Source: Deltaproteobacteria bacterium
Lineage (GTDB): Bacteria; Bdellovibrionota; JACOXK01
Assembly: GCA_016186995.1 (NCBI GenBank)
Contig: JACPKQ010000015.1
Span: 1 to 7,820 of the forward strand
Direction of reading: 5' to 3'
DNA: 7,820 nucleotides
A model generated the notes under the pieces. That model made no database searches. It was not told the origin of the DNA and worked only from the letters and a program-made list of their open reading frames with translations. Positions 4,323 through 7,820 of the stretch are shown piece after piece; position 1 is the stretch's first letter, and every line of letters begins with the position of its first letter. The position numbers were made by a program, and so were the translations under genes.

Positions 4323-4691
4323 ATGGTTCAACTTTATGTAGGTTTTGTTCTTGTCCTTATTTTTGTAGGTGTCTCCTTCAAGAGAAAACCTAAGATTCAC
4401 GTCCCTATTATGATTTCGTGTCTTGTTTTAGATCTGTCAGCTGTACTTTATTTGGAAATAACTCGAAATGCGGTCATGGAGGCCATCGAACATGCTCCAG
4501 AGTTTCTCATGCAAATTCATCTTGTGTTTGCCGTCACAACCCTTGTGGGTTATGGTGTAGCCGCTACAACAGGTACACTCCTTCTTAAGGGTAAAAGGGT
4601 CCGTCATATTCACAAAACAAATGCTGTTATCTTTCTTCTAGCCCGCATCGGGGTTTTTATAACCAGCTTTTGGGTGCCTGTATCTATTTAA
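4323..4691 (+). CDS. Small four-helix membrane protein, DUF420-like
   Basis: This 122-residue protein has four hydrophobic stretches (about 3-18, 27-46, 62-88 and 101-120) and basic connecting loops (KRKPK at 20-24, KGKRVRHIHK at 89-98). Histidines sit at or near membrane edges: His26 before helix 2, His57 and His66 around the start of helix 3, and His95 and His97 before helix 4. The size, helix count and His placement resemble DUF420 (YozB-like) proteins, which in some genomes lie near cytochrome oxidase assembly genes. The similarity is judged by eye and is not certain. The start has a modest TAGG 8 nt upstream, overlapping the permease stop. It is probably the third gene of the ABC operon. 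Its last 8 nt overlap the 3' end of the convergent cytochrome gene. A heme- or metal-related role is possible from the histidines but unproven. Confidence 0.7.
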   Translation: MVQLYVGFVLVLIFVGVSFKRKPKIHVPIMISCLVLDLSAVLYLEITRNAVMEAIEHAPEFLMQIHLVFAVTTLVGYGVAATTGTLLLKGKRVRHIHKTNAVIFLLARIGVFITSFWVPVSI

Positions 4692-5091
4692 AGGTTCTCA
4701 TGTATTGAACCAGTTTTTTTGCATCATCCTCTGAAATTTTGCCTTTATATCCAGGCATTTTTCCTTTTCCTTGAAGAACCGCTTGCACAAGAACCGCATC
4801 AGATGCTTTTTTGATACCGTCACCTGTAAGTTTTAGTTTTTCTTCTTCTAACTTAAACATTTTAGCCATTTTGGGAGAGCCTTCTCCAAGTGTTCCATGA
4901 CACGAAGCACACTTGCTTTTATAAAGCGCTATCGTTTCTTCACTGGCAGGCGTTCTTGAGGCTGCAGTACTTTGAATTTTAGATTTTGACATTTTATCTT
5001 TTTGAGATGCTGCATTTGTTCCTGCTGAAAAAACTGAAACAGAAAACAACAAAACAACACTGAGCACAACGAACCTTAGAGAATTTTGCAT
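4684..5091 (-). CDS. Secreted monoheme cytochrome c (class I)
   Basis: This is a periplasmic electron carrier. The 135-residue precursor has a Sec signal (basic start, hydrophobic residues 7-22, likely cut after Ala23 or Ala27), then a short Lys/Ser/Thr/Ala-rich linker, then an 80-residue cytochrome c domain. The single heme site is CASCH at 61-65. The distal ligand is probably Met112 in GKGKMPGYKG, a layout typical of small class I cytochromes c, and the C-terminal helix ends with AKKLVQYMRTFK. The start is strongly supported by GGAGG 4 nt upstream (5096-5100) in a G-rich run, and by a perfect extended -10 just before it. It is transcribed divergently from the octaheme cytochrome across 189 bp, so a shared function as soluble periplasmic electron shuttle is plausible. 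No specific partner can be named from sequence. Confidence 0.92.
   Translation of the reverse strand: MQNSLRFVVLSVVLLFSVSVFSAGTNAASQKDKMSKSKIQSTAASRTPASEETIALYKSKCASCHGTLGEGSPKMAKMFKLEEEKLKLTGDGIKKASDAVLVQAVLQGKGKMPGYKGKISEDDAKKLVQYMRTFK
4693..4720 (+). terminator. Weak Rho-independent terminator for the ABC operon
   Basis: GGTTC (4693-4697) and GAACC (4707-4711) form a 5-bp stem with a 9-nt loop, followed by AG and seven T residues (4714-4720). It begins 1 nt after the stop of the small membrane protein gene, where a plus-strand terminator is expected. The stem is short and has only modest GC. The whole element lies inside the last codons of the convergent cytochrome gene. Confidence 0.35.
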
Positions 5092-5095
5092 ATCC

Positions 5096-5123
5096 CCTCC
5101 CCCTTTTCTCTAAGATTATACCA
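5096..5123 (-). promoter_or_regulatory. Extended -10 promoter and strong Shine-Dalgarno for cytochrome c
   Basis: On the minus strand, TGGTATAAT (5115-5123) is a perfect TATAAT preceded by the TGn extension, which can compensate for a poor -35. No good -35 hexamer is seen at 16-18 nt. Transcription would begin near 5108, giving a leader of about 17 nt with GGAGG at 5096-5100, 4 nt from the ATG. This is the strongest set of expression signals in the window and suggests an abundantly made cytochrome. Confidence 0.65.
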
Positions 5124-5203
5124 GATTTTTTTCCTATAAATCCAGTAGATTTTTTTTACAACTTATTGAGCAAAAAACTAACTTTAATCATTTTTATTTT
5201 TGA

Positions 5204-5231
5204 TTGACTCAACTAACCTATTTCCTATATC
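5204..5231 (+). promoter_or_regulatory. Candidate promoter for the octaheme cytochrome/porin operon
   Basis: TTGACT (5204-5209, five of six) and TATATC (5226-5231, four of six) are 16 nt apart. The predicted transcription start near 5238 leaves a leader of about 43 nt before the ATG at 5281. It lies downstream of the alternative in-frame ATG at 5200, which argues for the shorter start. An AATCA/TGATT inverted pair (5186-5190 and 5201-5205) overlaps its upstream edge and could be a regulator site, but this is not demonstrable by reading. Confidence 0.45.
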
Positions 5232-5280
5232 TTCCATAAAAATAACCGTTAATGCTCTTTTGAAAACACAAAAAAGAAAT

Positions 5281-6102
5281 ATGAAAAAGGCCGTTTGTAT
5301 AACTTGTGTTTTTCTCTTTTTAATTTCCTGTCAATCTGTTCCAGCTAAAAAGGCAAGTAAAAACCCTCAAGCCACGACTCAAAGCGAAGAAAGCAACCTT
5401 AAAATTATTGAACAACCTGCATTTCATTCTCAAAAATTAAAAGGCGCAACGTATGTAGGTGTGTCAACATGCACGCTGTGCCACGAAAATCAAGCACAAC
5501 ATTTTAAAATGGCTTTGCATGCTCGGGTGGAAGTGGCAGGGGTTGAAAACACTCACGGTACAGCGTGTGAAATGTGCCATGGCCCGGGAAGCCTTCATGT
5601 TGAAGGCGGTGGCGATAAAACAAAAATTCTCAATCTAAAAAAAGATAACGAATCGTGCTTTAATTGCCACGCTGATAAAAAAGTAGAGTTTAAACTGAAA
5701 AACCATCACCCTGTATTAGAAGGAAAAATGCAATGCACCGATTGTCATAACCCACATGCCCCGGACGCTAAACCGTGGACAGCTGTTTCAGAAAGCGGGA
5801 CAAACGATGCGTGCTTTAAATGCCATGCTGAAAAAAGAGGCCCTTTTGCCTTTGAACACGAGGCACTCAGTTCTTCTTGTATTGCATGTCACAATCCACA
5901 TGGCTCTATTCACACAAAACTACTTGTTCAAAATGATAAAAACCTATGCTTAAGGTGCCACGCGCAAGCCAATTATCCTACAATTGGAGGAAGAGGTCAT
6001 GGTGCAAGTGGCACAGGCTATGCAACACAAGGTACCTGCTGGAGCGCGGGGTGTCATACAGGCATTCATGGATCAAACTTTGATGTTCATTTGAGGTATT
6101 GA
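5281..6102 (+). CDS. Octaheme c-type cytochrome lipoprotein (DmsE/MtrA-like)
   Basis: This is a predicted periplasmic-side electron conduit with eight heme-binding sites in 273 residues: CTLCH 64-68, CEMCH 96-100, CFNCH 126-130, CTDCH 152-156, CFKCH 178-182, CIACH 200-204, CLRCH 223-227 and an expanded CWSAGCH 253-259. Fourteen further histidines, including NPH repeats after hemes 4 and 6, are enough for bis-His ligation. The C-terminal GCHTGIHGSN resembles the end of DmsE/MtrA-family cytochromes, which normally have ten hemes. The chosen start gives a lipoprotein signal MKKAVCITCVFLFLISC, with lipobox LISC and lipidated Cys17. The residue after it is Gln, not Asp, which favours outer-membrane sorting. 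A longer in-frame ATG at 5200 would bury this signal and precede the candidate promoter, so it is rejected. The stop overlaps the beta-barrel start as TGATG, which implies coupled translation. Confidence 0.92.
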   Translation: MKKAVCITCVFLFLISCQSVPAKKASKNPQATTQSEESNLKIIEQPAFHSQKLKGATYVGVSTCTLCHENQAQHFKMALHARVEVAGVENTHGTACEMCHGPGSLHVEGGGDKTKILNLKKDNESCFNCHADKKVEFKLKNHHPVLEGKMQCTDCHNPHAPDAKPWTAVSESGTNDACFKCHAEKRGPFAFEHEALSSSCIACHNPHGSIHTKLLVQNDKNLCLRCHAQANYPTIGGRGHGASGTGYATQGTCWSAGCHTGIHGSNFDVHLRY

Positions 6103-7820
6103 TGAAAAAAAACTATTTTCTTTATCTCACTTTAAGCTTCATCCTCTTAAACATAAAAGCTTACGGAGAAGAACCTCTTCACACTGCGACTCCCTCTGCT
6201 TTTTATTTTTTTACCAACAAAGATTATTACCAATTTCAAGAATTCAGAGGTTTTAAAAAAGGTTTTGACGCAGGGTTTAATCAACTTACATTTTCTAAAA
6301 TCTACGAAAAAAAAGGGCTCGATCTTAACTTTGAAGGCCATGCCTTTGTTTTAAATAAAGACATCAATCTTCTGCTCAATCTTAAAAACAGCAATGACCC
6401 TTCAAAATTTAATCTTAAAACAGGCTTTAAATCTTTTAACCGCTATTTTGATCCGACAGGAGGATATTTTGCAACCTCTTCTCCAACACATTATGATTTT
6501 GGTGACTTTGGCCAATCAAATAAACTTACTTTATTTGACGGAAAGTATTTTATTGAATTGGGCTTTCCCATTTTCTCACTAGAAACTCTTGTAAAGAGCA
6601 GTTGGCATCGAAAATCTGGAAAAATGAGTGAACTTAACTGGGGTTTGGGTCCACAAGGCACGACTAAAAAGTTTTCTCCAGGCTTTTCTGAAATTGATCA
6701 AGATGTGTATGAAGCAGAACTGATCTTCAAAAAAGAAGTCAAAAATGGAGATATTACCCTTGGGCAACATTTTATCTATATGAACGATGATCCTATTCGA
6801 AGAGAGTTTGATCAAAATACTGTAGGTAAACGTGTGGTTCAAAGCCAAAACCTAAACAGTCTCCATTATGCAGCACATCTTACATTTTTTAAAGCGCTAT
6901 CAGAAAAAACACTGACCACCCTCGCCTATTATCTCAACCTAGGCGACACATCTGAAAAGCAAAACTTAGAATCATTTAATTCTGCAGGCGCAAGAATAGG
7001 TGGTGGAACAACAAAAAATTTTTTTAATGCCACGGCAGATAATTTTAAGCAAAAGCACAGTTTAAACGCCCATCTCTATAGAGAGGCTTGGAACAACATA
7101 TATATGAATCTTCGTCTCAATGCGTTTTATAAAGACCGTGATTCCGATGCAACCTATCCAAAAGATACCACTAGCCCCCCTGATTTCGTTATTGATCAAA
7201 CAACTATCATTGATACCGAAAACTTAGGCCTTGGGTTAGGAGAACAACTCAGCTTGCATTATAAAGGTTTCAATCGCTTAACACCCTATTTAAAACTTGA
7301 ATCAGAACAAAATATTTTAAAACTTACGGAAGATTCTATCACGACGGGGGTATCCGCAGATACTTTTTACAGAACCACAGCACAAATATTACTTAAAAAC
7401 ATAGCTGCGCTTGGCTTTTATTCCTATCCCAAAAATTGGCTCAAACTTTCAGCAGAATACAGCTTTAGCCCTGATATTGATGCTTACAACGACACTCGTG
7501 AAATTCCATCTTCTGTCGGTAGTGAAAAATCTGCTTTCGTCGATGACTTAAGAAGATTTTCACATGCTCTCAAAGCTAACGCCTCTCTTGCCCTTAATTC
7601 GTGGCTACAAACAGGATTGAGATTTAATGGAAAAAGAACTCGCTTTAAAATAACAACAGACGGGCAAGGAGTATCTAAAAGCTCTCACAACACTTATCAC
7701 TACACAGCCTTTTTTTCGGTTCTCCCACGATCTGATTTCTCTTTAGTTCAAAGCTTTTCTTTCAATGATGCAAGAACAAAAACCCCTGCAGTCTCATCAG
7801 CCACAGGATTTGCACAAATC
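6102..7820 (+). CDS. Outer-membrane beta-barrel, MtrB/PioB-like porin (runs off right edge)
   Basis: This is the predicted outer-membrane sheath for the upstream octaheme cytochrome. The 573 visible codons are open to the last base with no stop. A signal peptide occupies about residues 1-22 (MKKNYFLYLTLSFILLNIKA). The rest is rich in alternating polar/aromatic strands with Asn/Asp/Lys/Ser turns, has many Tyr/Phe and no cysteine, as expected of a transmembrane barrel. An early FRGFKKGFDAGFNQL stretch (about 45-59), a mid-region ending NSAGARIGGGT, and the repeated strand pattern resemble porins found next to multiheme cytochromes. Such MtrB-type proteins are commonly around 650-750 residues, so most of it is probably present. 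There is no N-terminal CXXC like that in Shewanella MtrB. The start overlaps the cytochrome stop by 1 nt and has no separate ribosome binding site. Family assignment rests on context plus barrel character rather than on a decisive motif. Confidence 0.75.
   Translation, partial: MKKNYFLYLTLSFILLNIKAYGEEPLHTATPSAFYFFTNKDYYQFQEFRGFKKGFDAGFNQLTFSKIYEKKGLDLNFEGHAFVLNKDINLLLNLKNSNDPSKFNLKTGFKSFNRYFDPTGGYFATSSPTHYDFGDFGQSNKLTLFDGKYFIELGFPIFSLETLVKSSWHRKSGKMSELNWGLGPQGTTKKFSPGFSEIDQDVYEAELIFKKEVKNGDITLGQHFIYMNDDPIRREFDQNTVGKRVVQSQNLNSLHYAAHLTFFKALSEKTLTTLAYYLNLGDTSEKQNLESFNSAGARIGGGTTKNFFNATADNFKQKHSLNAHLYREAWNNIYMNLRLNAFYKDRDSDATYPKDTTSPPDFVIDQTTIIDTENLGLGLGEQLSLHYKGFNRLTPYLKLESEQNILKLTEDSITTGVSADTFYRTTAQILLKNIAALGFYSYPKNWLKLSAEYSFSPDIDAYNDTREIPSSVGSEKSAFVDDLRRFSHALKANASLALNSWLQTGLRFNGKRTRFKITTDGQGVSKSSHNTYHYTAFFSVLPRSDFSLVQSFSFNDARTKTPAVSSATGFAQI

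Follow-up and report, generated by a model that had tools for sequence, protein, structure and literature searches.

A conserved pair of octaheme cytochrome and divergent beta-barrel as a probable trans-outer-membrane conduit of the MtrAB type in an uncultured bacterial lineage from groundwater

Do an eight-heme cytochrome and a beta-barrel encoded by two overlapping genes form an electron conduit through the outer membrane, and does such a conduit stand apart from those already described? The question is raised by the right-hand end of the window analyzed here, a stretch of 7820 b that makes up a complete contig (G000:C6) of a draft genome of 1.68 Mb in 30 contigs. A sequence-only reading of this DNA had pointed out a cytochrome with a lipobox, overlapping a large barrel, and had proposed a minimal porin-cytochrome conduit, possibly of a class of its own. 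The left part of the window is occupied by a row of mevalonate pathway genes on the minus strand (2-2393), which comprises a diphosphomevalonate decarboxylase-like gene, a GHMP kinase and a type 2 isopentenyl diphosphate isomerase-like FMN protein. Two palindromic stretches containing CCCGGG, at 225-250 (gtcatcccgggcttgacccgggatcc) and, similar and in the opposite orientation, at 2510-2545, resemble dispersed repeats; the former lies inside the decarboxylase-like coding region.

The octaheme cytochrome

The cytochrome gene (5281..6102, plus strand) encodes a protein of 273 aa. Its start is taken as ATG 5281 rather than TTG 5200, the mechanical start of the open reading frame, because the related cytochromes begin at the equivalent of 5281. 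The N-terminus, MKKAVCITCVFLFLISC, fits a lipoprotein signal: a predicted type II signal peptide (5281..5331, plus strand), MKKAVCITCVFLFLIS, precedes Cys17 at +1 and Gln at +2, and the LISC motif ending in Cys17 is the sole lipobox of the protein. The lipobox is kept in four of the four cytochromes of this kind, those of the window and of three relatives from the same class, always in the same alignment column; the cysteine is Cys17 in two of the relatives and, owing to a longer N-terminus, Cys22 in the third. A lipobox is absent from all of 12 decaheme MtrA/DmsE proteins of this phylum. The pattern and its conservation suggest that the cytochrome is lipidated, in line with the earlier prediction of a lipid anchor.

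Seven CXXCH motifs are followed by an eighth, atypical motif, CWSAGCH (CX4CH; 6037..6057, plus strand), which bears out the earlier count of eight hemes. Alignment and heme spacing equate this motif, which is succeeded by HxxxHGSN, with heme 10 of MtrA, and covalent heme binding by CX3-4CH motifs is known (PMC4245776). Histidines outside the CXXCH motifs are invariant at 12 positions among the four cytochromes and are available as candidate distal ligands for the eight hemes; the C-terminus, FDxHLRY, is invariant as well. The cytochrome of one relative (L009:5201-6288, G005:C105) lacks its last two hemes through an in-frame deletion of ~48 aa, which reflects either assembly error or decay.

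The assignment of the cytochrome to the MtrA/DmsE group, made from the sequence alone, is confirmed by database comparison. MtrA of the Mtr complex (PDB 6r2q, chain 6r2q_A) is matched with an E value of 9e-35. All four cytochromes match the decaheme models of DmsE (TIGR03508) and of the GSU2203 family (NF041028), with E values down to 1e-49 to 2e-51; the window protein, which has two hemes fewer, scores 158.1 bits against a curated cut-off of 192.2 for the former and 168 bits against a curated cut-off of 325 for the latter, and so remains below both. Alignment with the 12 decaheme proteins of the phylum in hhalign yields a probability of 100 and an E value of 8e-47, and the sole large gap falls on MtrA hemes 3-4. 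The heme spacings of the window cytochrome past heme 2 are 30, 26, 26, 22, 23 and 30, of which the run 26-26-22-23-30 agrees with the canonical spacings of hemes 5-10 (about 26, 24, 22, 23 and 28-54). Because the alignment gap and the heme spacing both map there, sequence comparison indicates that the cytochrome belongs with MtrA/DmsE/MtoA by homology and arose by the loss of hemes 3 and 4, its own hemes corresponding to MtrA hemes 1, 2 and 5-10. The likeness to Geobacter OmaB that had been suggested by the number of hemes is rejected: the deletion of hemes 3-4 from an MtrA-type decaheme accounts for the gap and the spacing, and published work sees no relationship between the Pcc proteins (OmaB/OmbB) and Mtr (PMC4245776). 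With its eight motifs the protein falls short of the ten hemes that characterize the MtrA/DmsE family, and its predicted lipobox differs from the soluble periplasmic (non-lipoprotein) signal peptide of the described members. Earlier reports of an MtrA that has eight hemes or is a lipoprotein were not found in the open-access literature, to which the search was confined. A search of a plasmid collection returned one partial DmsE-like match, from Photobacterium.

The barrel

The stop codon of the cytochrome gene overlaps the start of the barrel gene (6102..7820, plus strand) in the sequence TGATG (6100..6104), an arrangement indicative of translational coupling. The barrel reading frame is open to the end of the contig and encodes 573 residues. 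Its 3' remainder, the last 96 codons, is found in the first bases of contig C14 from this genome (G000:C14:3-290), and only a few residues are missing between the two pieces. Neither piece contains a cysteine, in agreement with the earlier description of a large cysteine-free barrel.

Three further MAGs from this class, the 'Deltaproteobacteria bacterium' genomes NC_groundwater_714, GWA2_38_16 and RIFCSPHIGHO2_02_FULL_40_11, encode homologues of the barrel, with identities of 60, 37 and 32 %; scanning a genome collection with the barrel brought up these three MAGs and no others. Each is located directly 3' of a cytochrome that is 79, 66 or 62 % identical to that of the window, and the overlap noted in the window recurs as TGATG in two relatives (L016 and L017) and as TAATG in the third (L018). 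A search of 368 genomes from the phylum detects the barrel in these four only; two further matches of the search (E 0.001-0.006) are weak, cover 42-89 positions and do not represent barrels of such length. The pair with its overlap thus occurs in four of the eight class genomes. Both genes are missing from the four others, which are 61-92 % complete, and the search of 360 genomes from the rest of the phylum came upon neither the pair nor its overlap or lipobox. The cytochrome and the barrel are a real, conserved porin-cytochrome pair, and not a chance association, because the cytochrome matches MtrA at the E value given above and the arrangement is conserved in four genomes.

None of the four barrels has a Pfam or NCBIfam match or reaches the cut-off of TIGR03509, PF11854 (MtrB/PioB) finds nothing in the window's genome, and a PDB sequence/profile search with the barrel gave no match worth naming. 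Of the two profile comparisons that the sequence-only reading had called for, the one with DmsE gave a strong match below the cut-off, and the one with MtrB/PioB produced no match to a family model. PF11854 does find normal MtrB beside decaheme cytochromes elsewhere in the phylum. Aligned with 14 MtrB proteins of the phylum in hhalign, the barrel is collinear over 588 columns with a score of 34.0, at a probability of only 8 %. The maximum among 60 column shuffles is 28.6, and decoy matches to the barrel are lower and only local: LptD attains at most 29.3, in the signal-peptide region, and TonB receptors 25.1. The N-terminal segment scores 22.9 with MtrB against at most 17.0, and the C-terminal third 33.8 against at most 23.1, at a probability of 40 %; each of them beats all 40 shuffles. 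An F-x-E-[YF]-R-[DG]-like N-terminal motif is common to the barrel and MtrB, and the best non-self matches of a HMMER model of the barrel are MtrB proteins (E 0.001-0.06 in a small test set). Whole-genome reciprocal profile searches between MtrB and the barrel gave nothing either way at E 10; the prefilter of these searches may drop candidates, and the scan was redone directly with HMMER --max and hhalign.

Structure prediction with AF2 from a four-row alignment gave a strand-rich first model with low confidence (pLDDT 45) and 24 strands, compared with 26 in the MtrB barrel. VIA-align superimposes 384 of its residues on MtrB (6r2q_B) at 4.7 A with Z 16.3, among generic barrels; MtrB stands out by aligned length in this low-confidence model only, and the top Z rows of Foldseek and VIA are generic barrels. 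In the second model, from a four-row alignment as well (pLDDT 40), MtrB appears at rank 47 and is not favoured, many barrels being equally similar. Two other identities were considered and rejected: LptD, whose profile score stems from the signal-peptide region, and a TonB receptor, since PF00593 is absent from all barrel members and from the window's genome, and the corresponding profile decoys score lower. The sequence-only reading had named an unrelated porin or TonB-type protein as the outcome that would speak against a conduit, and the Pfam and NCBIfam searches point to neither. Judging by the profile comparisons, the barrel is probably a divergent MtrB, its homology being unproven: the resemblance to MtrB/PioB is weak and not conclusive, but collinear, full-length and above that of shuffles and other barrels.

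These comparisons also bear on a different origin of the pair, in which an MtrA-derived, lipid-anchored eight-heme wire would have joined a barrel of non-MtrB ancestry and converged on the MtrAB mechanism. The result would be a separate conduit class, confined to one uncultured lineage and needing no surface cytochrome. The collinear full-length profile similarity, the common N-terminal motif and a gene order identical to that of mtrA-mtrB render this unlikely, even though Pfam, NCBIfam and HMMER give no significant MtrB/PioB match, canonical MtrB is easily detected beside decaheme MtrA in other members of the phylum, and the second structural model is equally like many barrels. It is more doubtful still, despite a lipid anchor that is unusual for the MtrA type and a barrel whose relationship to MtrB is unproven, that there is no wire and that a periplasm-facing or surface lipoprotein redox protein merely shares its operon with a separate transporter, since the cytochrome retains exactly the C-terminal six-heme part by which MtrA interacts with MtrB, ends in an invariant motif and has its gene translationally coupled to that of the barrel in each of the four genomes.

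The genomic neighbourhood

A monoheme class I cytochrome c gene (4684..5091, minus strand; PF13442, 1.9e-13) is divergently oriented to the octaheme gene and encodes a candidate periplasmic partner, MtoD-like by role. The divergent intergenic region between the two genes (5092..5280) includes a weak sigma70-like match on the plus strand (5204-5233), a match to the consensus only. The monoheme gene holds the same divergent position in one relative (G002), and another (G005) has a frameshifted copy. NapC/NirT-type (NapC/CymA-like) tetrahemes are found beside the pair in G002, G004 and G005. The G002 locus also carries genes for cytochrome c assembly (ResB and CcsA-type) and, near the conduit genes, an 11-heme cytochrome with a fused membrane domain of b type, which is formate dehydrogenase gamma/cytochrome b561-like (L010:12895-14952, G002:C8); the fusion is a candidate quinone-linked partner. 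An MtrC-less core accompanied by a quinone enzyme of the CymA/MtoC type and a monoheme cytochrome c is what mto clusters contain (PMC5566968; PMC8805035).

Past the end of the barrel, where the sequence-only reading had advised looking for an extracellular multiheme cytochrome, C14 encodes an unassigned 264-aa protein and then aa3-type oxidase genes and an alternative-complex-III-like cluster. Oxidase subunit I, a pentaheme cytochrome and one NrfD-like subunit of this cluster were checked by profile, the rest being read from sequence, and the neighbourhood is seen in one genome only, across a contig junction. MtrC/OmcA (TIGR03507) is not encountered above the cut-off in any of the eight draft genomes of the class, including that of the window.

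Other multiheme proteins are encoded elsewhere in the window's genome. A cluster at a contig end (L012:6060-15489, G000:C12:64059-73488) includes a hexaheme lipoprotein-like protein, a 400-aa protein with 10-11 hemes, tetrahemes, DsrP (NF045798, above the cut-off), a DsrO-like subunit, a NapC/NrfH-like protein and an 11-heme protein whose N-terminal ~330 aa have no heme motif. A 12-heme protein of ~798 aa with an N-terminal membrane segment (L097:3513-5909, G000:C20) scores 253 bits with ExtM, the selenite/tellurite operon cytochrome, far below the cut-off of 800.

The proposed conduit

We consider it quite probable that the pair is a divergent, lipid-anchored eight-heme trans-outer-membrane conduit of the MtrAB/MtoAB/PioAB type. 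The minimal conduit proposed at the outset remains the best reading, with a barrel partner present and no MtrC/OmcA above the cut-off in this or the related genomes. The evidence so far does not carry the claim of a distinct class and agrees better with a divergent MtrAB/MtoAB variant.

The wire would be an MtrA homologue reduced to eight hemes by deletion of hemes 3-4, near the periplasmic end. In the MtrCAB structure, the C-terminus of MtrA is directed outward, its C-terminal half contacts MtrB, and its N-terminus extends into the periplasm, which places heme 1 about 20 A deep in that compartment; the chain of hemes 1-10 covers 80 A across a membrane of roughly 40 A (PMC7198977). Dropping two of the ten hemes would by proportion leave about 60 A, still enough to span. 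Since the C-terminus of MtrA faces outward and the N-terminus is its mobile periplasmic end, the C-terminal six hemes are predicted to lie within the barrel, while the periplasmic end would be anchored in the inner leaflet of the outer membrane by the N-terminal lipid. By analogy, a lipid at the periplasmic leaflet fits the topology of MtrA. Insulation of the wire would fall to the barrel, which is most likely an MtrB that has diverged strongly; we infer both the insertion of the cytochrome and the transfer of electrons. In the periplasm, the partners in electron exchange may be the monoheme cytochrome c encoded next to the pair and a NapC/CymA-like tetraheme of the inner membrane. Because no MtrC/OmcA-like surface cytochrome was found, the conduit may meet its external donor or acceptor directly. 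Inward electron flow, with oxidation of a mineral or Fe(II) as in MtoAB/PioAB, is slightly preferred to outward flow, in view of the missing MtrC, the class I monoheme cytochrome c and the aa3-type oxidase and alternative complex III genes that adjoin the pair in the window's genome. The loss of the last two hemes from the cytochrome of G005 and the frameshift in its monoheme gene weaken the case for a conduit.

A natural lipid-tethered MtrA with eight hemes would identify periplasmic hemes 3-4 as a dispensable part of the wire, and could provide a smaller chassis for engineered conduits. It would also imply that the barrel half of conduits can drift past the models that are used to count extracellular electron transfer genes. 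Standard annotation recognizes only the cytochrome half of this pair, and surveys that depend on an MtrB hit miss the lineage because its barrel is beyond the family models.

Comparison with known systems

The pair differs from a complete MtrCAB conduit in that the extracellular MtrC/OmcA decaheme is not found in the eight draft genomes of the class. With OmaB/OmbB of the Geobacter Pcc it shares the architecture of an octaheme cytochrome and a barrel; however, its cytochrome is Mtr-related, whereas the Pcc proteins are published as Mtr-unrelated (PMC4245776), and it has no OmcB-type partner. Likeness to MtrA/MtrB of Shewanella (PDB 6r2q) extends to cytochrome homology over two N-terminal and six C-terminal hemes, the cytochrome-then-barrel order and the large barrel partner. 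By contrast, the window pair has eight hemes instead of ten, a CX4CH motif as the last, a lipobox, a barrel below detection by MtrB models, and no MtrC that could be found. MtoA, PioA and MtrA have ten hemes in all described cases, and MtoA and PioA, unlike the predicted lipoprotein of the window, are described as periplasmic (PMC5566968; PMC4245776). The MtoAB(CD)/PioAB systems of Fe(II) oxidizers resemble the pair in having no outer-surface cytochrome, and a monoheme cytochrome c and a CymA/NapC-type tetraheme are located nearby, as in mto clusters (PMC5566968).
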